DNA from: an uncultured Clostridium sp.
GTDB taxonomy: Bacteria > Bacillota > Clostridia > Lachnospirales > Lachnospiraceae
Assembly: GCA_947644195.1 (NCBI GenBank)
Contig: CANRZB010000015.1
Coordinates: 1-60,860, forward strand
Direction of reading: 5' to 3'
DNA: 60,860 bases
The notes beneath the pieces are model-generated. The model was not told where the DNA came from. It did not search any database and saw only the letters and a program-made list of their open reading frames with translations. Both the position numbers and the translations under genes were made by a program. Of this stretch, positions 145-27,571 are shown piece after piece (within the stretch, counting starts at the first letter, position 1; each line of letters starts with the position of its first letter).

Positions 145-3100
145 TTATTTTACCACATATTTCCGAATGGTCTTTGTTATAACTCTCTTAGTCATTTTAT
201 CTTTGACAGATACATACAACGTGTACTTTCCAGAGTTCTTTGGGCGCCAGTTTACGGTTTTTTTAGAACTATAGTTACGGATGCCCTTAATTTTATTGGT
301 ACCAGTTTTTTTGTATCCAAACTTATACTGGTATTTTTTAGTTCCTCCCGATACCAATACAGTCAGTTTCACTTTTTTATTTGCTCTGGCTTTTTTACTG
401 GAAGGTATTGCCTTAAATCTGTTAATCTTTAATTTGTCATTTACTACATAATTAGAGATCGTCTTCTTTGCAATGTTTTCTTTGTCATCTTTTGCATATA
501 CGGTAATGCAATATGTTCCAGCTTTTTTAGGTTTCCATTTTGCAGACTTAGAAGTCGCCCAATTCTTAATTACAGTAGAAGAACCTTTCTTTACAAAGAA
601 GCGATAGTTAATAACTCCTACTCCGCCTGTTGATTTCACCGAAATAGAAATGTTATCACCAACTTGTGCTATGCCACTAGCTTTGCCTATGGTCACATTT
701 GTGATATTTAACTTCTTTACTGGTTCTTCTGCGGAAGGAGTTTTACCAGGCACTGATGGCTTATTGGTCGGCTCTGTCGGTTTATTAGTAGGCTCTGTTG
801 GTTCATTGGTAGGATCTGTCGGCTCGTTGGTCGGCTCTGTCGGTTCATTGGTCGGATCTGTCGGCTCGTTGGTCGGATCTGTCGGCTCGTTGGTCGGCTC
901 TGTCGGTTCATTGGTCGGATTTGTCGGCTCGTTGGTCGGCTCTGTCGGTTCATTGGTCGGATCTGTCGGCTCATTAGTTGGTGCTGTCGGCTCATTGGTC
1001 GGTGCTGTCGGTTCTTTGGTCGGCTCTATTGATTTTTCTAAAACAGTTATATTAACAATTTGTGTGGTAGTGATTTTTCCATCGTTTGCAGTCAGTGTCA
1101 TAGAATACTTGCCTGTAACCGGATTATCCCACGTAAATACTCCTGTACTTGTGTTAAAAGAAGCTCCGTTAGGAATACCAATTGCTTTCAGTATTACGGT
1201 ATCTCCGTCAGGATCTGAAGTTTCGGCCGTAAAGGAAAGACTTTCGCCAGCCGAAACACGGAAAGAAGAGTCACAGGTAATCGCGGGTGGGTTATTTTTC
1301 GAAACATTATTTTCATCAAAGGTATCTTTCGGTACTGCCACCATAACAGATTTTCCTGGTACCGTAATTTCAGGACCTGATTCATTAATTTTTTCCAGAC
1401 CTGCTTTCGTTCCATCCGCTATAATAACCCAATTGTTGGAATCTGTTAGATTAACGGTATTCTCAGAGGTTGCGTTGTTAATAAGTACCGCTATTTTATC
1501 CCATTCGCCAGTGACATTATTGGTTTCATAAAATGCCGTCATTCCAGATTCGTCTTTGCTAATCCATTCTATATTATTATTTGTCGGATTCCAATTATCC
1601 GTACCTCTTTGTAGAACGGAACGGAAACCGGAAAATGATTTACGGATAAGGATCATTCCCTTATAGTATGATTGAATGTCGGAATATGTAGTTACTCGGT
1701 TCCAATCAATTTTGTTAACGGAATCTGGAGAAGAACTACTGTTATCCTCTCCGTTTTTAGTTCGGGCAAATTCTTCTCCTGCCTGTATAAACACTCCTCC
1801 TTTGGACACTAGAAGAACACTTCCCGCAATTTTATTCATTCTTTTCATTCTATCATCTTCAGATGAAAAGTTTCGTTCGAATCCCTCTGTCAATTTATCC
1901 CAAAGTGTAAGGTTATCATGGGAAGAGACATAGCTTAAGCAACAGTTCGATGATTTTGACCAGAATGGCCGCCACATGCCCCATTCGCCAGAAGTATAAC
2001 CTACAGATCCCATGATACCACCGAACACATTATTCGGCCATTTTTCGCCTGGTTCAAGATAAGTTCCTTCAAAATAATTATCCTGCGCCAAACCGATCGT
2101 ACCATCAAACTTTTGTCCTCCTTTTAAGGCATCTCTTATCTGATCATTGTAGTATCCGATGCCATAATCTAATTTGGATTCATTTGCCTTATGTGCACTA
2201 TCCGAATCGTATGCGCCATTACCGGTCCAGCCTTCTCCATATAACACAATCGTATTTTTGCCAAACTTGCTGTCCAGTGCTTTTCGAATTTGATTCATGG
2301 TGGTTAGGTCGTGTATTCCCATCAGGTCAAAGTTGAAACCGTCCAAATTATATTCCTCTGCCCAGTATGAAACGGAATCTATCATAAACTTACGGAACAT
2401 GGCACTTTTACTTCTGGTGGCATTGCCATAGCCGGATTGGTCATTATATGTCAAGTCGCTGTTGGTCTTATAATAATAGTCCGGCATGATCTTATTAAAA
2501 TTAGAATCATTGGCATCACAGGTATAGCTGTAGGCAACATCCATAATTACCTTGATTCCTGCATCATGCAATGCCTGGATCATTTCTTTCATTTCTGTGA
2601 TACGAACATTTCCATCACATGGATCACTGGAATACGAGCCCTCCGGAACATTGTAATTCTTGGGGTCATAACCCCAACTGTAATTACTTCCAGGACTTGT
2701 GCTGACGTTTGCCTCGTCTACGGATGCATAATCATACATCGGAAGAATCTGTACATGTGTAACACCAAATTCTTTTAAATATTCCACACAAGAAGCCGTT
2801 CTTCCTTCTCCATTAATTGTAGTACTCTCTGTGAATGCTTTATATTTTCCACGATTTTGCTGTGACACACCTGAACTTACATCAATAGAAAAATCTCTAA
2901 TATGAATTTCCCATACAATGATATCGCTAAGCAGGGTTTCTTCTCTCTGGTAGTTTTTATCCCAATGATCTGGATCAGTACTGTCCAAATCTACTACCAT
3001 AGCCCTGTCACCATTTACGCCTGTTGCTTTAGCGTAGATATCAACGGCTTCTTCGGTGATTCCGTTGACGGTTACTTTATATGTATAATATGTATTTACG

Positions 3101-3453
3101 ATGTCTCCAGTAACTTCTGTGCTCCATACACCCTTTTCACCTTTGACCATTGGTGTTTCCCCTATGGCGCTGCCACCATTGCCTTTTTCATATCGGCAAA
3201 GCACAATCGAAGAGGCTTCTGGTGACCATACCTTAAATGTTGTTTTCTCAGGGGTATAAGTACATCCCAAATCGCCTCCATCATAAGAATTCTGTGAATC
3301 ATAATTGCTGTCAAAGGAACGTTTGGCATTTATTTTCTCTTCCTTAGTTTCTGCATCTATTCCTACAGACGGAATGGCACTTATCGTCGTAGTTGCTATT
3401 ACAACGGCAAGAAAGAAACTCAAAATTTTTCTATTATTACGATATTTTCTCAT
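145..3453 (-). CDS. Secreted type I pullulanase (GH13) with Pro-Thr linker and C-terminal repeat domains
   Basis: Endo-acting alpha-1,6 debranching enzyme for pullulan and branched starch, acting outside the cell. A Sec signal peptide covers about residues 1-34. A CBM48/pullulanase N-terminal domain starts near 63 (LGCTYTPEKTTFKVWSPEAS), followed by the signature YSWGYDPKNYN. GH13 catalytic residues are visible: nucleophile Asp376 in DGFNFDLMG, acid/base Glu407 in LYGEGW and Asp513 in SSHDN. After the barrel come an Ig-like domain, a linker of EPTxPTN repeats, and two copies of a Y_Y_Y-like domain ending in NYVV and KYVV. At 1102 residues it is longer than minimal pullulanases because of these extras. 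There is no LPXTG anchor, so wall association would depend on the C-terminal domains. Start chosen at the ATG followed by a basic, hydrophobic signal sequence. Confidence 0.9.
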   Translation of the reverse strand: MRKYRNNRKILSFFLAVVIATTTISAIPSVGIDAETKEEKINAKRSFDSNYDSQNSYDGGDLGCTYTPEKTTFKVWSPEASSIVLCRYEKGNGGSAIGETPMVKGEKGVWSTEVTGDIVNTYYTYKVTVNGITEEAVDIYAKATGVNGDRAMVVDLDSTDPDHWDKNYQREETLLSDIIVWEIHIRDFSIDVSSGVSQQNRGKYKAFTESTTINGEGRTASCVEYLKEFGVTHVQILPMYDYASVDEANVSTSPGSNYSWGYDPKNYNVPEGSYSSDPCDGNVRITEMKEMIQALHDAGIKVIMDVAYSYTCDANDSNFNKIMPDYYYKTNSDLTYNDQSGYGNATRSKSAMFRKFMIDSVSYWAEEYNLDGFNFDLMGIHDLTTMNQIRKALDSKFGKNTIVLYGEGWTGNGAYDSDSAHKANESKLDYGIGYYNDQIRDALKGGQKFDGTIGLAQDNYFEGTYLEPGEKWPNNVFGGIMGSVGYTSGEWGMWRPFWSKSSNCCLSYVSSHDNLTLWDKLTEGFERNFSSEDDRMKRMNKIAGSVLLVSKGGVFIQAGEEFARTKNGEDNSSSSPDSVNKIDWNRVTTYSDIQSYYKGMILIRKSFSGFRSVLQRGTDNWNPTNNNIEWISKDESGMTAFYETNNVTGEWDKIAVLINNATSENTVNLTDSNNWVIIADGTKAGLEKINESGPEITVPGKSVMVAVPKDTFDENNVSKNNPPAITCDSSFRVSAGESLSFTAETSDPDGDTVILKAIGIPNGASFNTSTGVFTWDNPVTGKYSMTLTANDGKITTTQIVNITVLEKSIEPTKEPTAPTNEPTAPTNEPTDPTNEPTEPTNEPTNPTNEPTEPTNEPTDPTNEPTDPTNEPTEPTNEPTDPTNEPTEPTNKPTEPTNKPSVPGKTPSAEEPVKKLNITNVTIGKASGIAQVGDNISISVKSTGGVGVINYRFFVKKGSSTVIKNWATSKSAKWKPKKAGTYCITVYAKDDKENIAKKTISNYVVNDKLKINRFKAIPSSKKARANKKVKLTVLVSGGTKKYQYKFGYKKTGTNKIKGIRNYSSKKTVNWRPKNSGKYTLYVSVKDKMTKRVITKTIRKYVVK
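758..1029 (-). repeat. 21-bp tandem repeats encoding the EPTxPTN linker of the pullulanase
   Basis: About twelve copies of a seven-residue EPTxPTN unit (x = A, D, E or N) lie between the Ig-like and the C-terminal domains. At DNA level the units are 21 bp and nearly identical, so copy number can change by slippage or recombination. The linker is rich in Pro, Thr, Glu and Asn and is probably extended; it likely separates the catalytic part from C-terminal surface-binding domains. Confidence 0.85.
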
Positions 3454-3647
3454 GATACATTTCCCTTCTATTTATAATTCATATATTTCTTGTCCTTTGT
3501 TTTCTGCTGTACGTTTTTTATTGTATAATACATGAGCATTGATTGCAAATGAATTTCTCTTCTACTTCCCCAGAGAAAACGCAGGGTTCGAATTGCTAAT
3601 AAAAAGTTGGTAAAGTGGAATATAGGAAGGGGAACGGAGACAAAAGC

Positions 3648-3669
3648 AGGCCCAGCTGCAGCTGGGCCT
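3648..3669 (-). terminator. Perfect 22-bp palindrome, terminator of the sigma/anti-sigma operon
   Basis: AGGCCCAGCTGCAGCTGGGCCT is a perfect inverted repeat 50 bases downstream of the anti-sigma stop codon on the minus strand. Read leftward it is followed by a short T-containing stretch (TGCTTTTGT). The U tract is weak, but the stem is very GC-rich. It separates the operon from the pullulanase promoter region. Confidence 0.6.
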
Positions 3670-3718
3670 ACTTCATGATTTTACCAAACCAGAGTTTACT
3701 AAAGCAGTATTCTCTGGA

Positions 3719-4357
3719 TTATTTCTTTTCTAAATCAACCGAGTATTCCGTTACAGTACCTTTCACACAGTATTGGTAGTCTCTCCCCTCGATCGGTACG
3801 GTCCCTTTTGCTTCGCCATCTGCATAATCCTTGGTAATGTCAACCTGGACTGGTTTTTCAGAGATTCCTTCCAGAATGAGATAGATGGTATCGTTTATCT
3901 GTTTCAAAGAAGTTTTTATCTCTTCCTGTGCGGTGGAAGAAGATGGGTCACTTATCTTTTCTGTATTTTTGGATTCATCGATTTCTACTCTTGCTGAGGA
4001 GTCTTTGTTATCATCGATAGATACCCGAAATTGGGTATTTCCATTTTTATCTTTTGATTTGCTGATCTTGGAAACAGGATAAGGTTTACCATTTACGTAA
4101 ACAGAGACATGTTCTGCAACCTGTTCGATCAATGTACTACCGGTAGCGGCATAAGCAATTCCGTTCGCAGATAGCAAAACGATAGCGCATGCTGCCAGCG
4201 ATACAGCGACACGGAATCCAATGCGTTTTTTGTTCTGGTGGTTAAATTGAATCATAGTGTTTTCCTCCATATTTCTAATTTGGCGATATCCCTCGTCAGA
4301 AAGTTTAATCTGATCAAAAATATCTCGATAGCGTTGTCTGTTAGTTTGTTTCTTCAT
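3719..4357 (-). CDS. Membrane anti-sigma factor (single-pass)
   Basis: A 212-residue protein with a basic cytoplasmic N-terminus of about 47 residues, one transmembrane segment near 48-70 (FRVAVSLAACAIVLLSANG) and an extracytoplasmic domain. This is the usual layout of anti-sigma factors encoded with ECF sigma factors. The gene overlaps the sigma gene upstream by 17 bases, implying translational coupling and 1:1 partnership. The N-terminal segment (FDQIKLSDEGYRQI) would bind the sigma factor; the outer domain may sense an envelope signal. It is assigned mainly by context and topology. No zinc HxxxCxxC motif is visible, so it is not a ZAS-type anti-sigma factor. Confidence 0.75.
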   Translation of the reverse strand: MKKQTNRQRYRDIFDQIKLSDEGYRQIRNMEENTMIQFNHQNKKRIGFRVAVSLAACAIVLLSANGIAYAATGSTLIEQVAEHVSVYVNGKPYPVSKISKSKDKNGNTQFRVSIDDNKDSSARVEIDESKNTEKISDPSSSTAQEEIKTSLKQINDTIYLILEGISEKPVQVDITKDYADGEAKGTVPIEGRDYQYCVKGTVTEYSVDLEKK

Positions 4358-4844
4358 CGCTCCAATCCTCCTTTAACATGGTTCCCAGTTTTTTGCGCGC
4401 CCGCATTAGTTGTGTTTGAATCGTGGTTTCTTTGCGCTTTAGTATTTCCGAGATTTCCTGTATGGAATAGTCTTCGTAGTAATATAGATGAATGACAATC
4501 CGATATTTGGGTGGGAGTGTCATGACCGCATCATATAAATCACTTTCTTCCTGATGCGAAAAAGCTCCTTCACTAACCATGCTGCTTTCAGAATCTTCCA
4601 GCGGAACAATGCGTTTCTTCCAAAAGGAAGTACATAGATTTTTGGATTCATTGGCGGCTACCCGGATCAGCCACTTTCGCATGTGTTCCCGATCTTGGAA
4701 TTCCGTATTCGATTGTAAAAGTTTGAGAAACACATTTTGTGTAATGTCCTGAGCATCGCAGGGATGCTTGCAGTAGCTGTAGGCGATGCGGTATACCATA
4801 TTGGCATATTCATCCACCGCCGCAATGTAATCTTGGTTTTCCAT
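4341..4844 (-). CDS. ECF RNA polymerase sigma factor (SigV/SigW-like)
   Basis: A 167-residue sigma-70 family protein with only regions 2 and 4. Region 2 contains AYSYCKHPCDAQDITQNVFL; region 4 contains LPPKYRIVIHLYYYEDYSIQ followed by an EISEILKRKETTIQ helix-turn-helix. It recruits RNA polymerase to a dedicated regulon, probably in response to envelope stress through the overlapping membrane anti-sigma gene. An AGGAGG site lies ten bases upstream of the ATG. Such operons are often autoregulated, but I could not assign the promoter with confidence. Confidence 0.9.
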   Translation of the reverse strand: MENQDYIAAVDEYANMVYRIAYSYCKHPCDAQDITQNVFLKLLQSNTEFQDREHMRKWLIRVAANESKNLCTSFWKKRIVPLEDSESSMVSEGAFSHQEESDLYDAVMTLPPKYRIVIHLYYYEDYSIQEISEILKRKETTIQTQLMRARKKLGTMLKEDWSDEETN

Positions 4845-5000
4845 GGTATTTTTCCTCCTGGTTTGAAAGGCCTTTCTACTATAATGACAAATGGGAAAGC
4901 GCTGAAATCACATGGACACAAAATATTCAAAATATCAAGCGAACCTTTTTGGAATCTGATATACTATAGAATAGATGACAGCATGAAAAGGGGCGAGAAC

Positions 5001-17478: not shown

Positions 17479-18156
17479 ATGGTAATTGCAATTTGTGATG
17501 ACAGCAGGGAACAGGTGGAAGAGGAATATCGGTTATGTCGTGAATTGGGAGGAGGGAAAGATACCATTATTAAGTTTTATCATGGGGCAGAACTGTTAAA
17601 ATATCGGGGAGTGATCGACCTGGTTATTCTGGATATTGAACTGCCCGATATGAATGGCATTGTACTGAAAGAAAAAATGCAACGATACCGAAAAGACACC
17701 CTCATTGTGTTTGTGACAAATTACAGCGAGTTTGCCATGGATGCTTTTGGGGTCAATGTGTTGGGCTTCATTGAAAAACACAGGTTGAAAACGCAATTGC
17801 CCGTTATGCTGAGAACCGCTTATCAGATGTTTGCAAAGTATATTTTTATGGATGATATGATCAACAGCCGTAACATTGTTTATATCAAATCTGAGCATAA
17901 TTATGGAAGACTGATTTTATCGGATGGAAGTACCTATCTGATCAGAACCAGTATGAGAGAACTGGAAAAGAAGTTGGCGGAATATGATTTTTTGCGGATC
18001 CACAGGGAATTTCTCGTAAATATGATGTGGATTGAGAAAATGAAGCCGGACAGTGTACAAATTCTTGATGATACTCTGCCGATCTCCACCAGGATGCGCG
18101 GAAAAGCGAAGCAAGAATACCGAGAGTTTTGTAAAAACAATGCAAGATATTGCTGA
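17479..18156 (+). CDS. LytTR family response regulator
   Basis: A 225-residue regulator with an N-terminal receiver (AICDDSREQ, phospho-acceptor Asp52 in VILDIELPDMNG) and a C-terminal LytTR DNA-binding domain (VYIKSEHNYGRLIL, MRELEKKL, FLRIHREFLVNMMWIEKM). This AgrA/PlnC type commonly controls bacteriocin, peptide-signalling and surface genes. No cognate kinase is adjacent. The next gene encodes a membrane protein with a matching direct-repeat operator upstream of it, and the secreted-protein/ABC cluster lies about 4 kb downstream. Confidence 0.87.
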   Translation: MVIAICDDSREQVEEEYRLCRELGGGKDTIIKFYHGAELLKYRGVIDLVILDIELPDMNGIVLKEKMQRYRKDTLIVFVTNYSEFAMDAFGVNVLGFIEKHRLKTQLPVMLRTAYQMFAKYIFMDDMINSRNIVYIKSEHNYGRLILSDGSTYLIRTSMRELEKKLAEYDFLRIHREFLVNMMWIEKMKPDSVQILDDTLPISTRMRGKAKQEYREFCKNNARYC

Positions 18157-18241: not shown

Positions 18242-18290
18242 AATTTAGAGATATTTATGTGCGATGAAGTGTAGTATGGGAGTGATCAAA

Positions 18291-19001
18291 ATGTATTTGA
18301 AGAAAACGATGGTAACGGTGTTTACGGTTCTTTGCTTTGGTATCTGCTGGATTGTCTTACATTGGGAAACACCGGGGTATCTTTCCTCTGCAACACGAAA
18401 GATATATTTCGATCACGGTGGGGAAGGCGGATATTTTTCGCTGTGGACTTTTCTGCTACTGGATACTGTTGCCTTATTGTTTTATGTCGTTATGAGGATG
18501 CAGGATGATACGATGCATATCGTGATTCGGTATCTGGACCGTGAAGAAATTTGGAAATATAAGATTCTTAAAATGTTTCAATTGATCTTGCAGTTTACTG
18601 TCATTCAATTTGGAGTCGATCTGGGGATGATGTTATTGGAATATCCTGTCCGTGATTTGATCCAAAGCCGGATTATATCCTATCTGGCGTTGTTCTTTCC
18701 CAATGTATTTTTCTATTATGTCTTTTTTATCTGTGTGTTTTTCATGTGTCAGACGATCGTCACGACCTGGAAAGCATTTCTGTGTACCATGGGTTTGGCG
18801 GTTTTCATCTATCTAATTCTGCTTTTTGGTATTTTTTCTTCCTGGAATCCACTCTTTTTTCTATCTCTTTTAAATATACAGATCTGCCATGGAGTCAATG
18901 AGGCGGATCTTCTTTTGTCTTATATCAATATTTTATCCATTGACGTGGTTGCCGTTTTCATGGGACTGAAACGGTATCAGGGCAAGGACTTCATACTGTA
19001 A
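18291..19001 (+). CDS. Polytopic membrane protein of unknown function
   Basis: A 236-residue protein with about six hydrophobic helices: near 5-25, 55-75, 95-120, 130-155, 165-190 and 205-228. I recognise no family signature. Size and topology resemble the small permease partners of bacteriocin immunity ABC systems, but there is no ATPase beside it, so this is only a suggestion. A GGGAGTG site at 18278 fits the ATG at 18291 better than earlier ATGs. It lies directly after the LytTR regulator and behind a candidate LytTR operator, so it is probably its target. Confidence 0.65.
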   Translation: MYLKKTMVTVFTVLCFGICWIVLHWETPGYLSSATRKIYFDHGGEGGYFSLWTFLLLDTVALLFYVVMRMQDDTMHIVIRYLDREEIWKYKILKMFQLILQFTVIQFGVDLGMMLLEYPVRDLIQSRIISYLALFFPNVFFYYVFFICVFFMCQTIVTTWKAFLCTMGLAVFIYLILLFGIFSSWNPLFFLSLLNIQICHGVNEADLLLSYINILSIDVVAVFMGLKRYQGKDFIL

Positions 19002-20728: not shown

Positions 20729-21993
20729 CAGAGGTACAGGAAAGAATCATGGTTTTGATGGATGAGATTAATCTTATCTGTGAAAAGGAATCCCTGCATT
20801 ATGTGCTGATTAATGATACAGCGGTCAGGGCCAGAAAGAAACATGCTTTTGTGGATGCCAGATTTGAGTTTAAGCTGTTGATGCCGATGGAAGATATCGC
20901 CAAACTGCAGGCGTATGTAGCGGCTCATTTTGCGGAAAACCGCGCCATCGAGTCATGGGAGAATAACGGTGCGCTGTATGCGATGGTCTTTCGGTATGTG
21001 GATAAGAACAGCCTGTTGATTGATGGTCCGGCTGGCCGATATCTAAAGATGCCGGGAATTGCTGTGACCATTTATCCGGCTAGGTGTGGAAAACCCGCTG
21101 ACCGTGTTGTGGGGGCAGAACAGTATCTGCAGCAGATTAATAACCATGCTGGAAATCGTTGGAAGAACACCTTAATATTCTTAAAGCTGCGGGCCCGTCG
21201 GGCGAAAAAATATAAAAAAGCGACACAGTATCATGCGGAGCATATGTTTGCCGGCAGAGTACAATATCTTCTGGGAGGCAGGGACAGGCTGGCACGGTGG
21301 ATTATGGCACGTCAGAATAGACAGGGGACAGGCCATGCTGATGGATACTGGTATATGAAGAAAAACAGCCAGATGATCCGTCTGCCGGATAACATGTTTA
21401 CTGAGGTGGAATGGATTCCCTTTGAGGGACGTCAGGTTTGTATTCCGGAGAAATCCGAAAACTATTGGACGGATAAGGACCCAAATGAGAGAACGGGAAT
21501 GTCTACCGCCATCCGTGTGATTTGTGAATGTGATCTGCCCTACGAGGAATATCTGGAATTCCTGCAGGATAAGCCGGGGCCATCCCTGAAAACACTGATG
21601 CAGCATTATCGGGAGTATTCCCAGTGGATGGGGAGCGTGTATACTCCGATGGAGGAAAAGGTCAATCATACTTTTCTAGGAGTACGGCGTTCTGTGGATC
21701 GGATCGATGTCTGGCATGCATTGCGTGGGAAGCGGGAGGCGATCCGGGAAGCGTATCAGCAGAAGGACATTGCACAGCTTGAAAAACTGCTAAAGACATA
21801 TCTGGAAAAGACGGATCTCTATCTGAAAGAGAAAATCGGTTTTTATATTGACGAGGAATTGTTTGAGAGTGCGAAATTAGTCTGGGAAAGCCGTGGCAAA
21901 AAGAAATATGCGGATAGAGTATATAAACTGGTGCCGGATCTCTACAAGAAAGAAAGCGTGGAGGACACTCTGGCAAATGGGCGAAACCAATAG
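20725..21993 (+). CDS. Degenerate LicD-like protein, probably catalytically inactive partner
   Basis: A 422-residue protein that begins like the upstream LicD protein (VQERIMVLMDEINLICEKESLHYVLIND...). The signature is lost: where the active protein has GTTLGAIRHEGFIPWDDDLD, this one has DTAVRARKKHAFVDARFEFK, so the metal-binding acidic triplet is absent. The C-terminus is helical (KQRL-type helices around 330-410). Coupled by ATGA overlap to the active LicD gene, it may form a heterocomplex or act as a scaffold. Alternatively it is a diverged enzyme with another activity. A terminator overlaps its last codon. Confidence 0.65.
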   Translation: MTEVQERIMVLMDEINLICEKESLHYVLINDTAVRARKKHAFVDARFEFKLLMPMEDIAKLQAYVAAHFAENRAIESWENNGALYAMVFRYVDKNSLLIDGPAGRYLKMPGIAVTIYPARCGKPADRVVGAEQYLQQINNHAGNRWKNTLIFLKLRARRAKKYKKATQYHAEHMFAGRVQYLLGGRDRLARWIMARQNRQGTGHADGYWYMKKNSQMIRLPDNMFTEVEWIPFEGRQVCIPEKSENYWTDKDPNERTGMSTAIRVICECDLPYEEYLEFLQDKPGPSLKTLMQHYREYSQWMGSVYTPMEEKVNHTFLGVRRSVDRIDVWHALRGKREAIREAYQQKDIAQLEKLLKTYLEKTDLYLKEKIGFYIDEELFESAKLVWESRGKKKYADRVYKLVPDLYKKESVEDTLANGRNQ

Positions 21994-22008
21994 GGGTTTC
22001 GCTCTTTT
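21981..22008 (+). terminator. Intrinsic terminator of the licD operon
   Basis: GCGAAACC (21981-21988) pairs perfectly with GGTTTCGC (21995-22002), followed by TCTTTT. The stop codon of the second licD gene lies in the loop, so the hairpin starts within the coding sequence. Confidence 0.75.
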
Positions 22009-22141: not shown

Positions 22142-22170
22142 TTGACATAGAAAAATACTTAGTTTATAAT
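22142..22170 (+). promoter_or_regulatory. Perfect-consensus sigma-A promoter of the secreted-protein operon
   Basis: TTGACA (22142-22147), a 17-bp spacer and TATAAT (22165-22170) match the consensus exactly. The leader to the next start codon is about 130 bases and includes a small hairpin (GGAAAT/ATTTCC, 22273-22289) next to the AAGGAG site. So strong a core promoter suggests high expression or tight repression by a factor not identified. Confidence 0.85.
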
Positions 22171-22306
22171 TAGTTTGTTGATCAATATATAGGGTGTAAT
22201 GGATTGGATACAATCTTTTCTGTTATGGCCCTGACTGTAGCGCTGCATACGTTACTGAAAACAAGTTTGTAAGGAAATGATAAATTTCCGAAAAGGAGAC
22301 TAGATT

Positions 22307-22690
22307 ATGATAAGAAAAAGAGTAGTTGCAGGTGTATTGGCACTATCTTTGGCATGCATCCCTGTGGGCGCCAGTGCGATGTCCTATCGGGGGAAGGGGT
22401 ACTGTATCAAAACATTCAAAACTTCAGGAGGTCAGGTAACGGCGAGTGTCAGTTATGCGAAAAATACGAAACTGCTCAAAGATACCGTTCAATGTATTGC
22501 TCATACTTCGGGAAACATTGGAATAACAGCGAAATGTTACTATAATGAAAAATTGTACAAGAAAAAAACCTTGGTAGGCAAAGCTTCCCTGACTGAAGGG
22601 GAAACGAAAAGAGATGTTTCCAGCACCTATTGCTATGGTAAGCTGTCATTATCGGGCGATATAAAGAATACATTATATGCGGATGAGTAA
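22307..22690 (+). CDS. Small secreted cysteine-containing protein (bacteriocin-like or signalling candidate)
   Basis: 127 residues with a classical Sec signal peptide (MIRKRVVAGVLALSLACIPV, cleavage likely after GASA at 24), leaving about 103 residues. The mature part is basic, rich in Lys, Thr, Ser and Tyr, probably beta-rich, and has four cysteines (YCIKTF, VQCIAH, KCYYNE, TYCYGK) that could form two disulfides. I recognise no family. Its general features recall lactococcin 972-type secreted bacteriocins, which are encoded next to MacB-like ABC transporters, but there is no clear sequence match. It has its own strong promoter and AAGGAG site, and precedes three permeases and an ATPase. Confidence 0.75.
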   Translation: MIRKRVVAGVLALSLACIPVGASAMSYRGKGYCIKTFKTSGGQVTASVSYAKNTKLLKDTVQCIAHTSGNIGITAKCYYNEKLYKKKTLVGKASLTEGETKRDVSSTYCYGKLSLSGDIKNTLYADE

Positions 22691-22720
22691 TTTGTAATTT
22701 ATCTGTGGAGGGTATGATTT

Positions 22721-22825
22721 ATGGGTTCCATGGGGAAAGAAGGTACGGATCTTTTCCCTATGGAATTCCTGGATAGAAAGGGGAAGGATGAAATATTTTT
22801 TTTCAAATGTATTAATCGGGGTTGA
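22721..22825 (+). CDS. Possible 34-residue peptide overlapping the first permease start
   Basis: An ORF with a good GGAGGG site eight bases upstream reads MGSMGKEGTDLFPMEFLDRK... and ends 35 bases inside the permease gene in another frame. It may be a real small peptide or only serve translational coupling. No family recognised; coding status is uncertain. Confidence 0.25.
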   Translation: MGSMGKEGTDLFPMEFLDRKGKDEIFFFKCINRG

Positions 22826-24089
22826 CTTGATGATTTACAGATGGAGGAGAACCTTGGTTACTATGCTGCTGTTCCTGGCAGGTTTTGTATTAGCGGGTAT
22901 GACACTAATCTGTGTGAATATCACAGAATATGACCGGATTGAGTATAACAAACGTTGTGACATTACCAGGACAGGCTGTATGTTAAATGACAATGTGGGG
23001 GGATTTGAGCCAGATACCTCTGGAATTACTGATTATGAGAAAAAAATAGATATGTTACTAAGAGAACAGCCGTTCCAAAGGTTCTATAACCGCTTGAAAA
23101 AGAGTGGACTGGTTGAAAAATGTGCGCAGTATTCCATTTTGGGGAATCCGGAGGTAGATGAGGATATTGTCAGATTTCAGCAAGGACACCAGATTAACAA
23201 CTATGCAAAGTCAGACTGCGTGGAAGTGACCCATGTACAGAAGGATCTTTTTGACCTGTATGATATTAAAGTAGAGTCTAAGGTGGACCGGGACGATTGG
23301 TGTACAGATGGCATCATTTTGGGATACCGATTCAAAGAAAAATATGAGGACATAGAATATATTAACTTTCTAGGAAAAAAATGCAAGCTTCTTGGTTTTT
23401 TGAAAGAAAATCAGAAACTCTCGTTTGAGGAAGTTGCGCATAAGGATGGGATCGCATTGACAGGATTATACAACCTGGATTATGCTTTTTTTCATCTGTA
23501 TCCTGAGGATGCCTATACGGGAGTTGAGCTTCATTTTCGGCTTGCGCAGGGCGTAACCAGGGAGGAGTTTCGGAAGAAAGCCAAAGAAATGGCGAAAGAA
23601 GAAGAGGCAACCATTGAAACATTATATTTTATGGATGAACACTTGTCTGAACTGAAGAAGGGCAATATAGACATTTTGGGATATATCAATGAGTTTGCGG
23701 TTGGATTGTTACTTGGTGTTACTTTGATCTGTATATTTTTCAAAGTACATTCTATTCTTAGAAATAAAAAAATATATGGAATTTTCTATTCTTCCGGTTT
23801 GTCAACCCACCAGATTAACGCTCTGTTTGTCATTGAGAATGTGATTATTTTATTTATTTCACTGATTATGGCTTATCTCTGTTTGTATCATGGAATCTTT
23901 TATTTTTGTGAATTTTTTGGGTCAGTGCCGCATTTAATTGTGGATGTCGTGAAAAGTGTTTTGGTTTCCAAAGTATTTGTACAGGAGTTTCTGCTTTGCT
24001 GTGCTATGATTATCGTGACGTCTGGAATACCGATATTGCTCTTTTCCAGGCTTTCGCCTCTTTCCATGATGAGAGATTTTTATGAATAG
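22788..24089 (+). CDS. MacB-topology ABC transporter permease (first of two paralogues)
   Basis: A 433-residue membrane protein with one N-terminal transmembrane helix (about 20-42), a large extracytoplasmic domain (about 45-295) and three C-terminal helices (about 298-320, 345-370 and 400-425). That is the MacB/FtsX fold, in which the permease transmits force to extracytoplasmic partners instead of forming a channel. The outer domain contains DLFDLYDIKVESKVDRDDWC, KCKLLGFLKENQKLSFE and FHLYPEDAYTGVELHFRLAQ. It is about 60 percent similar by eye to the next gene, with an identical 3' end at DNA level. An ATPase gene follows the pair. Confidence 0.8.
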   Translation: MKYFFSNVLIGVDLMIYRWRRTLVTMLLFLAGFVLAGMTLICVNITEYDRIEYNKRCDITRTGCMLNDNVGGFEPDTSGITDYEKKIDMLLREQPFQRFYNRLKKSGLVEKCAQYSILGNPEVDEDIVRFQQGHQINNYAKSDCVEVTHVQKDLFDLYDIKVESKVDRDDWCTDGIILGYRFKEKYEDIEYINFLGKKCKLLGFLKENQKLSFEEVAHKDGIALTGLYNLDYAFFHLYPEDAYTGVELHFRLAQGVTREEFRKKAKEMAKEEEATIETLYFMDEHLSELKKGNIDILGYINEFAVGLLLGVTLICIFFKVHSILRNKKIYGIFYSSGLSTHQINALFVIENVIILFISLIMAYLCLYHGIFYFCEFFGSVPHLIVDVVKSVLVSKVFVQEFLLCCAMIIVTSGIPILLFSRLSPLSMMRDFYE

Positions 24090-24116
24090 CCCCGAATATT
24101 GTAATAGAGGACAGGT
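23965..24116 (+). repeat. Direct repeat copy 1: 128-bp identical tract at the permease 3' end
   Basis: Positions 23965-24092 are identical to 25332-25459 at every base. After one mismatch, a further 24 bases also match. The tract covers the last 42 codons of each permease plus the start of the intergenic region. The remainder of the two genes is clearly diverged at DNA level, which points to recent gene conversion or recombination between tandem copies. Confidence 0.9.
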
Positions 24117-24136
24117 TATGGATCGAGAGGAAAACG

Positions 24137-25456
24137 ATGAAATCTTTGTTGGCGAATATTTTAATGACGGTTGATTTGATGAGCTGCCGCTTGATTAAGA
24201 CCTTTGTTACGGTGCTGTTATATATTGTGGGTTTTGTCTTGGCGGGAATGACGCTGCTCTGTGTGAATATCTCCCAATATGATCGGATTGAGTATGGGAA
24301 ACGGTGTGAGATTACCAGAACGGGTTGTATGTTTAATTTAGATATGCCCGACGAAAATGGAGAGGAACTCATCTTGGATACATCCGGGATCACGGACTTT
24401 GAGGAAAAAGTTGACCTGGCGTTACGGCAGCAGCCCTACCAGCGTTTCTACAATCAACTGAAACAAAGCGGGTTGGTGGAAAAATGTGCACAGTATACTG
24501 CTTTGGCAAACTCAGATGTAGACCAGGACATTGTGAAAGTCCAGGAGAAAAACCAGGCACAGGAATATTTGGGAAGCGGAGATGTGGAGTATATCAATGT
24601 ACAGAAGGATCTGTTTGACCTCTATGATATCAAGGTGGAAGCCAAGGTAGATCCGAAGGACTGGTGCGAAGACGGCATTATTCTGGGCAGTCAGTTTAAG
24701 GAAAAGTATCATGATGCTGAGGAAATTTATTTTAAGGGAAAGCAGTGTAAACTGCTGGGGTTCCTGGAACAGGGGCAGAAGCTTTCCTTCGAGGATATTG
24801 CTCACGAAGGAGATATGACACTGACGAGTTTGTATAACCTGGACTATGCGTTTATGCGTTTATTTCCTGAAGACGCATATCAGGGTACAGAGATTCATTT
24901 CCGACTGGCAGAGGGGGTGACCCGAGAGGAATTTCGGGAGAAAGCAGCCGAAATGGCAAAAGCGGAGCGCGCCACGATTGAGTCGATGTATTTTATTGAT
25001 GAGCACCTGGACAGGCTGGAGAAAAGCAATAGGGAGATCCTTGGCCATATCAAAGATTATGGTATCGCTTTATTAGTGGGGGTTGCCGTTGTCTGCATTT
25101 TGGTAAAAATATATTCCATCCTGGGGAAAAAGAGATTATACGGAATTTTCTATTCCTCCGGGTTATCAACGAGCCAGATTAACTCCTTGTTTGTGATTGA
25201 GAATATGATTCTCCTGTTTTTTTCCTTACTGGTGGCGTTTCTATGCCTGTACCAGGGACTAAACTATTTTTGTTCGGTGATTGGAACTCAACAGTCGTAT
25301 CTGGTCATTGATGTAGTCAGAAGTGTTCTGATTTCCAAAGTATTTGTACAGGAGTTTCTGCTTTGCTGTGCTATGATTATCGTGACGTCTGGAATACCGA
25401 TATTGCTCTTTTCCAGGCTTTCGCCTCTTTCCATGATGAGAGATTTTTATGAATAG
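24137..25456 (+). CDS. MacB-topology ABC transporter permease (second paralogue)
   Basis: A 439-residue paralogue of the preceding permease with the same 1 + 3 helix topology and outer domain (DLFDLYDIKVEAKVDPKDWC, QCKLLGFLEQGQKLSFEDIA, FMRLFPEDAYQGTEIHFRLA). It has a small insertion near residue 65 relative to its neighbour (MPDENGEELILDTSG). The two probably form a heterodimer served by the one ATPase downstream. Start at 24137 after GAGAGG. The final 42 codons are identical at DNA level to those of the first permease. Confidence 0.8.
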   Translation: MKSLLANILMTVDLMSCRLIKTFVTVLLYIVGFVLAGMTLLCVNISQYDRIEYGKRCEITRTGCMFNLDMPDENGEELILDTSGITDFEEKVDLALRQQPYQRFYNQLKQSGLVEKCAQYTALANSDVDQDIVKVQEKNQAQEYLGSGDVEYINVQKDLFDLYDIKVEAKVDPKDWCEDGIILGSQFKEKYHDAEEIYFKGKQCKLLGFLEQGQKLSFEDIAHEGDMTLTSLYNLDYAFMRLFPEDAYQGTEIHFRLAEGVTREEFREKAAEMAKAERATIESMYFIDEHLDRLEKSNREILGHIKDYGIALLVGVAVVCILVKIYSILGKKRLYGIFYSSGLSTSQINSLFVIENMILLFFSLLVAFLCLYQGLNYFCSVIGTQQSYLVIDVVRSVLISKVFVQEFLLCCAMIIVTSGIPILLFSRLSPLSMMRDFYE

Positions 25457-25484
25457 CCCTGAATATTGTAATAGAGGACAGGTT
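25332..25484 (+). repeat. Direct repeat copy 2: 128-bp identical tract
   Basis: Second copy of the tract described at 23965-24116; 25332-25459 is identical, then 25461-25484 matches after one substitution. Confidence 0.9.
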
Positions 25485-25554
25485 GTGGATGGCAGAAAGT
25501 GAAATGAGGGAACAGAACGAAGAAGTATTTGTTTGCCAAATAGAAAGGATGACT

Positions 25555-26202
25555 ATGATTAAATTAACAAACCTTACAAAAGAATATAAAAAACCCCATA
25601 AAATTATATTGAATGAGGTTTCTCTGACGATTGATGACAATGAATTAGTGGCAATCATGGGAAAATCCGGGGCGGGAAAATCCACGCTGCTTAATATTCT
25701 GGGCTGTATCGACGATGCCAGTGGCGGAGAGTACCAATACGATGATACGCTGGTATCCGGTCTGACAAAAAAAGAAACGCATTTATTTCGGAAACAGCAT
25801 TTTAGCTATGTGTTTCAAAATTTCGAATTGATCCCGCAGTATACCGTGTATGAGAATGTGGAGCTTCCTCTGTTAGCTAGGGGGATCAGCAATAAAAAAG
25901 AAAAAATATTAAAAGCACTGGATGCTGTTGGAATCCTGGAGCATAAGCGGAAAAAAATTAATAAATTATCGGGTGGCGAGCAGCAGAGGTGTGCGATTGC
26001 GAGAGCGATTGTTGCAGAAACGGATGTGATTCTTGCCGATGAACCAACGGGTGCCCTGGATGAACAGACATCCGCTGAGATTATGGATCTGTTAAAGGAA
26101 CTACATAAAAAGGGCAAAACGATTATCATAGTAACCCATGATAAGGACATTGCAGATCAATGTGAGCGATGCATCACCATCAAAGACGGAAAGATCCTGT
26201 AA
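25555..26202 (+). CDS. ABC transporter ATP-binding protein (MacB/LolD type)
   Basis: A 215-residue ATPase: Walker A GKSGAGKST (about 37-45), Q-loop FQNFELIPQYTVYENVELPL, signature LSGGEQQRC, Walker B VILADEPTGALDE and H-loop IIVTHDKDIA. The P-T-x-x-x-N-V-x-L-P-L and ADEPTGALD wording is that of the MacB/LolD/BceA branch, which drives force-transmitting permeases; in lactococcin 972-like clusters a similar ATPase sits beside the bacteriocin gene. Start at 25555 after AAAGGA. It is encoded right after the two paralogous permeases and before a third. Confidence 0.9.
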   Translation: MIKLTNLTKEYKKPHKIILNEVSLTIDDNELVAIMGKSGAGKSTLLNILGCIDDASGGEYQYDDTLVSGLTKKETHLFRKQHFSYVFQNFELIPQYTVYENVELPLLARGISNKKEKILKALDAVGILEHKRKKINKLSGGEQQRCAIARAIVAETDVILADEPTGALDEQTSAEIMDLLKELHKKGKTIIIVTHDKDIADQCERCITIKDGKIL

Positions 26203-26317
26203 AGAGTCCGTTCCCTGGTGCGACGAATATGAAATTTCTTTCTGTTGCACCCGAAATATCCCCGAACAGGGGAGTGGAGATTGGACTTAATCATAGAAAG
26301 GAATAGCGGAGTAAAAG

Positions 26318-27151
26318 ATGAAAAAAGACTGGAAAGCACATCCTGTATCGAATGGAATTACATTTGCAGGTATCTTGTTATCGTTGTTTATGATTTCATA
26401 TTGTATGCTTTTTGGAGAACGGTATCGTTCCTTTGATGAAAAACAGAAGGAAGCATACCGCCTGAACGTAAATATTCAAACGGTGGAACAGGATCTCACG
26501 GAGGATCAGGCAATTAACATACTACAGGGATTTGGAGGACTGGTAAGGGATCATTCGCTGACCTATGCCGTCATTGAGGATTTGGAGGAGCAAAAAATAT
26601 TGACGTTCCATGACAGGGGACCGGGCATGGATCAGATCACGCAGAAGGACGTCAAACATGTCTGCACATTGATTAATACAGGTGCGCTGTGTTTTGTGAT
26701 GCATGATAATAAGCCGCTGCAGGACGTGTATCGGGAATTAACAGAACTTTGCAGCCAGCAGGGGATGGAAATTTTTATCAATGACCATAAGGAGCGGAAC
26801 GAAAGAAAAACAGTCGTTGTCGAGAAGATGCTCTATGTCTCCATTCGAGCTGCTTCCATCATTTTTTCCACCTTATTTCTATTGTTTTCTATTTATTTGT
26901 GGTTTGATCTTCGGAAGCACGAGTGGTTTATCCGAAACATTTGCGGACAGTCGGTCAAAGAATTGCTCCTGGAATCCGTCAAAATTTTTTTGATATTTAT
27001 TGGGCTTGCTTACCTGGTAGCGGTGTTATCCCTGTCCATAGCCAAACCGACCTCGGCGTTCCATATCATGCAGTATGGATTCCTTGGAGTAGCAGAAGCG
27101 GTTGTTTGTGTGGGGGTACTCAGTATCAAATACTCAAATGTGAAACGGTAA
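26318..27151 (+). CDS. Third small MacB-like permease or accessory membrane protein
   Basis: 277 residues with one N-terminal helix (about 12-32), an outer domain of about 130 residues and three C-terminal helices (about 176-200, 215-240 and 245-268). The topology matches a shortened MacB permease, but I see no sequence identity with the two larger ones. Outer-domain sequence includes LTEDQAINILQGFGG and YAVIEDLEEQKILTFHDRGP. It lies 115 bases after the ATPase and is the last gene of the cluster; the trp promoter follows. Possible role: immunity or an alternative permease half. Confidence 0.65.
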   Translation: MKKDWKAHPVSNGITFAGILLSLFMISYCMLFGERYRSFDEKQKEAYRLNVNIQTVEQDLTEDQAINILQGFGGLVRDHSLTYAVIEDLEEQKILTFHDRGPGMDQITQKDVKHVCTLINTGALCFVMHDNKPLQDVYRELTELCSQQGMEIFINDHKERNERKTVVVEKMLYVSIRAASIIFSTLFLLFSIYLWFDLRKHEWFIRNICGQSVKELLLESVKIFLIFIGLAYLVAVLSLSIAKPTSAFHIMQYGFLGVAEAVVCVGVLSIKYSNVKR

Positions 27152-27242: not shown

Positions 27243-27270
27243 TTGACATTTAACGGGAATGGCGTATAAT
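27243..27270 (+). promoter_or_regulatory. Promoter of the trp operon
   Basis: TTGACA (27243-27248), a 16-bp spacer and TATAAT (27265-27270). Transcription would start near 27277 and run through a T-box leader of about 295 bases before trpE. Confidence 0.88.
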
Positions 27271-27277
27271 AAAATAC

Positions 27278-27571
27278 ATTCAATTGAATATCAAACAAAC
27301 CGATGAGGCGGAGATAACGGTAAAATATGCGCTTCCAGAGAGTGGGGGATGGTGAGAACCCCATAGAGATGCAGTTTATCAAATGGACCGCTGAGGGCAT
27401 GGTCAAAGGATGTGGATCCGAGTATTCCATGACGTGGGGGCATACGTCAGTTGCCGGGAATATTATTGTATTTCGCTAAGAGTGTGGTTTTCCATGAAAC
27501 AAGGTGGCACCGCGGTAAATTATAATTCACCGTCCTTGGATTAATATTTTATATTAATCCAAGGATTTTTT
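27278..27571 (+). promoter_or_regulatory. Tryptophan-specific T-box riboswitch leader
   Basis: Stem I features are visible (AGAGAGTGGGGGATGGTGAG, then AACCCC). The specifier codon TGG is at 27384-27386 within ATCAAATGGACC, which pairs with the tRNA-Trp anticodon. The hallmark T-box sequence AAGGTGGCACCGCGG lies at 27501-27515 and binds the uncharged tRNA acceptor end. Uncharged tRNA-Trp would stabilise the antiterminator and allow transcription of trpEGDCFBA. The Trp specifier agrees with the genes downstream. Confidence 0.95.
27533..27571 (+). terminator. T-box terminator hairpin
   Basis: TCCTTGGATTAATAT (27533-27547) pairs perfectly with ATATTAATCCAAGGA (27551-27565), followed by six T. 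Part of the left arm would otherwise pair in the antiterminator. Confidence 0.92.

Follow-up and report, generated by a model that had tools for sequence, protein, structure and literature searches.

The operon considered here lies at positions 22142-27151 of a stretch of 60,860 nucleotides (nt) of DNA (contig CANRZB010000015.1; "the window" means this whole stretch) from an uncultured Clostridium sp. of the Lachnospiraceae, and comprises genes for a small, predicted secreted protein and for the parts of an ATP-binding cassette (ABC) transporter. Its five genes all lie on the plus strand, are separated by gaps of 47-115 nt and have Shine-Dalgarno-like sequences 5′ of their starts. They are preceded, on the same strand, by a sigma-70-type promoter of perfect consensus (22142-22170; TTGACA-17-TATAAT, 12/12 matches), one of two perfect sites in the 60.9 kb window against the 0.23 expected from a Markov simulation (spacers of 15-19 nt). 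An earlier reading of the sequence (the original prediction) had claimed this promoter, a small Sec-exported basic protein with four cysteines, two paralogous permeases of 430-440 residues, a MacB/LolD-type ATPase and a third, smaller permease of the same topology, and each of these was recovered.

Genes of the operon

The first gene (22307-22690, from the list of open reading frames, ORFs) encodes 127 amino acids (aa), of which residues 1-24, ending in ASA, were read by eye as a Sec-type signal peptide; the predicted mature part (22379-22687) has 103 aa, an isoelectric point of 9.4 and four Cys. A loose lipobox-like stretch ends at Cys17, but related proteins have no Cys at that position, which makes cleavage after Ala24 the likelier. 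The original prediction had not recognised the protein, and it belongs to no family that profile and library searches could name: it has no match in Pfam, NCBIfam, PADLOC, plasmids, phages or viral contigs, and its best E-values are 0.14 in PHROGs and 0.97 in the PDB. An AlphaFold2 model made from the single sequence consists of strands only (pLDDT 39).

Two relatives were located by gene position, a 135-aa secreted protein on contig C34 of the same genome (locus L022) and a 145-aa one in a genome of the same genus (G264; locus L216). In searches of 4588 small ORFs with a profile of any two of the three, the top-ranking non-member was always the remaining one (E 0.0014, 0.065 and 0.0084). Their invariant residues fall mostly in two patches, V...V.Y.K....LKD and Y.Y.KL, and include no Cys; the cysteines of the window protein are not conserved, the other two having none and one, respectively. 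Run against 338 genomes of the family, the three-sequence profile found no other convincing member, so that this branch of secreted proteins is rare. Three candidate relatives were rejected: one in G094 (E 0.004) lies inside a 1981-aa frame, one in G259 (E 0.014) inside a multi-helix protein, and the match of the three-sequence profile in G173 (E 3e-5) contains three stops and overlies another gene in another frame. On contig C34, the related secreted gene is followed by a fused frame of the two permease classes described below, and directly 5′ of it (2150-4895; L227) are encoded three similar, exported-looking proteins of 254-279 aa.

The next two genes encode FtsX-like permeases, A1 (433 aa; 22788-24089) and its tandem duplicate A2 (439 aa; 24137-25456), which are 67% identical (65.8% by blastp). 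The start of A1 is overlapped, in a different frame, by a 34-codon ORF (22721-22825; ATG GGT TCC...) preceded by GGAGG, and translational coupling is possible. The last gene encodes a shorter permease of 277 aa (26318-27151). By hydropathy, all three start with a single helix, followed by an outer domain and three further helices, the plan of the FtsX domain in type VII (MacB/FtsX-like, mechanotransmission) ABC transporters. The Pfam model PF02687 matches A1 with 26.4 bits, above its cut-off of 25.5, and A2 with 20.8 bits, below it.

Two classes of permease can be told apart in the wider family, for which we built a class-A profile from 16 sequences and a class-B profile from 13. In all-against-all blastp the best matches fall within a class, while the two classes are distantly homologous to each other (hhalign 98.5%, E 1.6e-15). 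The usual set is one class-A protein (about 400-460 aa), one class-B protein (about 350-400 aa) and one ATPase. A match to PF02687 at E 0.1 or better was found in all 16 class-A members, and among solved structures both profiles match MacB best (class A, E 2.9e-8; class B, E 1.1e-9) and further match LolF, YtrF, BceB and FtsX chains. An AlphaFold2 model of A2 built from six sequences, of low confidence (pLDDT 51) and not fit to stand alone, aligns to the same type VII permeases.

The 277-aa protein falls with class B (hhalign 71.5%, E 3.6e-5, against 2.6% for class A; 26 bits with the class-B hidden Markov model). A profile of this protein and its two relatives in G264 finds, besides itself, a single locus in the 338 genomes, an ordinary class-B gene in G092. 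Judged by these matches, it is a shortened class-B permease. The original prediction had singled out three permeases for one ATPase as unusual; the count stands, but the puzzle does not, since by sequence this is a two-permease system in which A is duplicated. The unduplicated state is seen at L216 in G264, with a secreted protein, one A (416 aa), an ATPase (70% identical to that of the window) and a short B (270 aa); a second locus of that genome, L215, has an A, an ATPase (70%) and a short B (33% identical), without a secreted gene. A1 and A2 are only 24-31% identical to the A proteins of G264, and their own 67% identity therefore places the duplication after the split from G264. Furthermore, their last 40 residues are identical, and a direct repeat of 181 nt (23943-24123 and 25310-25490, both on the plus strand, 96% identical) covers the 3′ ends of both genes and extends 34 nt past both stops, a sign of recent recombination or gene conversion. 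A more diverged operon of similar layout lies on contig C22 of the same genome (831-5508; L165), where a 364-aa exported-looking protein and a 142-aa protein accompany an ATPase and two four-helix permeases (348 and 394 aa), neither of which is matched by the A or the B profile at E 1e-3.

The ATPase (25555-26202) has 215 aa when read from ATG, or 239 aa from an alternative TTG start at 25483. Its best NCBIfam model is TIGR03608, the lactococcin 972 ATPase model, with 235 bits against a cut-off of 254.85, and it is an ATPase of the MacB/LolD type that serves type VII transporters. All 12 ATPases scanned from operons with A and B permeases (A/B operons) also match the MacB model, with a better best E-value than TIGR03608. 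BceA is among the PDB matches of the window ATPase; the PADLOC matches look generic and were set aside. In a tree of 63 ATPases (37 from A/B loci, six of lactococcin 972 type and 20 others picked by hand), with midpoint rooting only, the window ATPase groups with the two of G264 (100/100), and this trio lies inside a group of 30 A/B sequences (91/45; 97/88 for 29 of those), seven A/B sequences remaining outside.

Spread and diversity of related operons

At E 1e-15 the class-A profile matches 27 of 298 genomes of the family, at E 1e-10 four of 28 members of the genus, and four of 293 genomes in a sample of the class, the genome of the window being included each time. We examined 45 loci (the window and L022-L065), 29 of which (L037-L065) had not been used in building the profiles. 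An adjacent A/B pair is present in 38 of the 45 and in 25 of these 29. In split pairs B comes before A in 28 of 39 cases and A before B in 11. Some loci (L034, L063-L065) resemble other FtsX-type loci, and in L039 no B was detected beside a good A. An ATPase-based scan of genome contigs, which listed 80 loci, added at least four that look like the A/B type by layout and by the A/B profiles (L066, L067, L068 and L092), L066 being the same sequence as L054. Searches of an open-access library showed no description of split A/B operons.

The association with secreted genes was scored by a strict rule: a protein of 100-175 aa with a signal-like start, a Shine-Dalgarno sequence and no later helix, whose stop falls between 250 nt upstream of the first permease and 30 nt into it. 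Three loci were not evaluable. The rule is satisfied in 17 of the 42 others, as against 12 of 281 control genes (Fisher p 6e-10), the controls being other genes of the same loci and thus sharing genomes with the test genes. The original prediction had made its reading depend on the small protein and the permeases occurring together in other genomes, and the gene plan does recur.

A selective list made by eye holds 24 secreted proteins in the 45 loci and one more in L067, 25 in all, those of L055 and L057 being near-identical. By this list, no secreted gene accompanies the pair in 16 of the 38 loci, of which three (L043, L046, L053) lie at contig ends; comparable are pneumococci reported to carry scbBC only (PMC11796350). 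The 25 proteins form small similarity groups that profiles mostly fail to unite, and hhalign comparisons among the groups stay mostly at the level of shuffled sequences. The exceptions, in which none of 60 shuffles scored as well, are groups c1 and c2 (18.8) and, against lactococcin, c3 (17.7) and c2 (13.3), all with hhalign probabilities of 3.2% or less. Family-scan matches of the 25 were scattered and weak, each occurring in one or two members (E 2.5e-4 at best in one, to the BT3233 family, and 0.006 or worse in the rest), and were not trusted. Beside A/B or ATPase genes, five loci (L044, L060, L062, L218, L219) encode small lipoprotein-like or anchored proteins that share, by eye, a similar NEETEG/NEDTEG-like stretch and might be a second immunity factor.

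Kinship with lactococcin 972 clusters

With lactococcin 972-type clusters (lcn972-orf2-orf3, scbABC, mediterrocin) the window operon shares a small protein with a predicted Sec signal encoded together with the pump, FtsX-like membrane protein(s) and a MacB-type ATPase. The differences are that its permease lies in separate genes, in the order A-A-ATPase-B, that its ATPase groups apart, and that its secreted protein matches neither the lactococcin 972 models (TIGR01653, PF09683) nor that of mediterrocin (NF052268). Likewise, A1, A2 and the short B have no match to TIGR01654, the model of the single DUF1430 protein with seven transmembrane helices, which weakly matches two of 13 class-B members (best E 0.0098).

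Clusters of the lactococcin 972 type do exist in this bacterial family. In L158 and L163, a secreted protein accepted by the lactococcin 972 or the mediterrocin model stands with a DUF1430-type protein and an ATPase, and L159 has the same layout with a small protein that the models do not recognise. The DUF1430-type proteins used here are 636-729 aa long. Among them, L158 alone scores above the TIGR01654 cut-off, those of L163 and L166 resting on weak matches. We aligned seven of them, split the alignment at residue 345 of L158 and compared the halves by hhalign. For the N-terminal half, class B is the closer match (92.2%, E 5.8e-7, with 74.2% for class A); for the C-terminal half, it is class A (94.6%, E 6.6e-8, with 91.7%, E 7.8e-7, for class B). 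Both margins are modest. On these matches DUF1430 proteins may be read as B and A in one chain, in the order that is also the commoner one of split operons. Pfam places a weak FtsX domain in the N-terminal half of the L158 protein and DUF1430 at its C-terminal end. Fusion in the other order is seen on contig C34, where the A frame continues into FRDKPSDLLMTIGF, fitting a class-B start, up to the contig end. DUF1430 has been listed beside MacB- and Bce-like families, with doubt as to whether it is a real ABC protein (PMC9408558); that A, B and ATPase genes travel together in split operons argues that it is one.

On sequence evidence, then, the window operon shares its plan with the lactococcin 972 clusters, and its permeases are distantly homologous to theirs, but it is not a member of that family; of the kinship in plan with these bacteriocin and immunity clusters that the original prediction had proposed, the plan holds and membership does not.

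A candidate bacteriocin system and its alternatives

We favour, with a probability of about 0.6, the reading that the operon encodes a bacteriocin guarded by a heterodimeric ABC pump of the MacB/FtsX type. The operon is probably an unrecognised bacteriocin system of a gut bacterium, its layout resembling that of toxin-and-immunity operons, and it is from this layout that we infer both toxicity and immunity. The basic protein would leave the cell by the Sec route, be released and act on the envelope of competing bacteria, while the producer would protect itself by a type VII complex of four-helix A and B permeases with an ATPase dimer. Transport of the secreted protein across the membrane would not be the task of this pump. 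Its outer domains, driven by ATP, would move so as to detach the secreted protein from its envelope target, as in the target protection proposed for BceAB-type pumps (PMC7038271, PMC7438565) or, in a variant, would release it from the producer's own surface. With A duplicated, complexes of A1/B and A2/B (or A1/A2) could form in the window's organism.

Self-protection seems the most economical reading because a Sec-exported protein is encoded with a pump, there is no adaptor gene in the operon (no MacA-like gene among its ORFs), pump loci occur without a secreted gene, the spread is patchy and the secreted proteins are diverse. In its favour are also the recurrence of the A/B pair, the enrichment of secreted genes, the matches of the DUF1430 halves, the second locus in the same genome and a divergence of the secreted proteins much greater than that of the ATPases. 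To these are added two reports on the lactococcin 972 side. The plasmid-borne lcn972 cluster confers immunity, the minimum inhibitory concentration of lactococcin 972 in L. lactis rising from 12.5 to 800-1600 AU/ml with plasmids that carry lcn972 and orf2-orf3 (PMC4055356), and a gut commensal is described as the source of mediterrocin, an active bacteriocin whose cluster has a DUF1430 and an ABC gene (PMC12345188). The separate roles of orf2/orf3-type genes, including that of the "immunity" protein, are said to be unverified in any lactococcin 972 locus (PMC11796350).

Several results weigh against this reading. The strict secreted-gene test is failed by 25 of the 42 loci, and none of the 25 listed secreted proteins matches a bacteriocin model, in libraries that do recognise lactococcin 972-type proteins of this family (L158, L163 and L164, a positive control). 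When the window's secreted group is compared with lactococcin 972-like proteins, 26 of 60 shuffles score as well, and in the ATPase tree the lactococcin 972-type sequences form a separate group (100/99). Moreover, divergence among the class-A permeases comes close to that of the secreted proteins (median normalised scores over 20 loci of 0.075 and 0.054, with 0.513 for the ATPases), and in a Mantel test over 20 loci the similarity of secreted proteins follows that of class-A permeases (0.16, p 0.04) weakly and no better than that of the ATPases (0.15, p 0.05), which leaves a specific toxin-immunity pairing unsupported.

In the most serious alternative, though a much less probable one, the ABC complex would serve to release or mature a secreted protein whose role is structural, adhesive or otherwise non-toxic, in the way that LolCDE or FtsEX work on a partner outside the cell. 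Type VII pumps are described as working mechanically outside the membrane (PMC5985334), both permease profiles match the MacB, LolF, YtrF, BceB and FtsX chains named above, to which the low-confidence A2 model also aligns, and the secreted gene comes first in the operon, under the perfect promoter. A MacB-type ATPase and four-helix permeases that carry an outer domain are common to the window operon and to MacB, LolCDE, FtsEX and YtrEF; the operon differs from them in its two permease classes, its cognate secreted protein and the lack of a MacA-like adaptor gene. However, the diversity and patchy distribution suit competition better than a basic cell function, and loci with A and B but without a secreted gene are common.

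The second reading of the original prediction, a peptide-sensing envelope-stress module, fares worse. In this case, a Bce-like module would sense and resist foreign peptides, with the secreted protein as an accessory, and it is true that BceB and BceA are among the PDB matches of permease and ATPase and that BceAB-type modules share the type VII ATPase, the FtsX-like fold and the proposed target-protection mechanism. Nevertheless, the window permeases have four predicted helices each, not the ten of BceB, and no two-component system adjoins the operon: there is no such gene within 3 kb, the nearest ending at 18156, 4 kb before the promoter. Near the other loci, a tblastn test that undercounts found such a gene at five of 44 (L024 has, by eye, a LytTR-like gene nearby). 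We consider this alternative improbable.

A chance neighbourhood of unrelated genes, to which the failures of the strict test and the secreted groups that profiles mostly do not unite might point, is very improbable given the enrichment over control genes and the repetition in L216 of a related secreted protein with A, ATPase and short B.

The operon is flanked by LicD-like genes on one side and trp genes on the other, and in all nine genus members examined the operon and the LicD genes are absent from the roughly 7-8 kb upstream of trpE. A terminator-like hairpin lies 3′ of the upstream LicD-like gene (21979-22004, plus strand, by consensus scan); taken alone it is weak, the scan having found three such sites against 6.9 expected in shuffles. 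Farther upstream are a LytTR-like regulator (17479-18156) and a membrane protein (18264-19001) similar to the WxPxxD family NF035952 (45 bits against a cut-off of 70). Ahead of the trp genes, the second perfect TTGACA/TATAAT site (27243-27270, 16-nt spacer) and a strong terminator-like hairpin (27532-27566) together resemble a leader or attenuator; an Rfam scan of the window at gathering thresholds gave no match, this region included.

Tentatively, and with odds somewhat short of even, the operon may be one example of a broad and so far unannotated group of protein bacteriocin systems among the Lachnospiraceae and other Clostridia, in which secreted proteins too diverse for family models each go with a heterodimeric type VII pump, lactococcin 972 and mediterrocin being its fused-permease branch; the pump could then be used as bait for many new antibacterial proteins. 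If this is true, antibacterial proteins of gut Clostridia that diverge too fast for sequence searches to catch could be found by way of the pump. A hypothesis also follows for the "immunity" protein in lactococcin 972 clusters, which may be two FtsX-like permeases fused into one chain and acting together with the ATPase encoded beside it.

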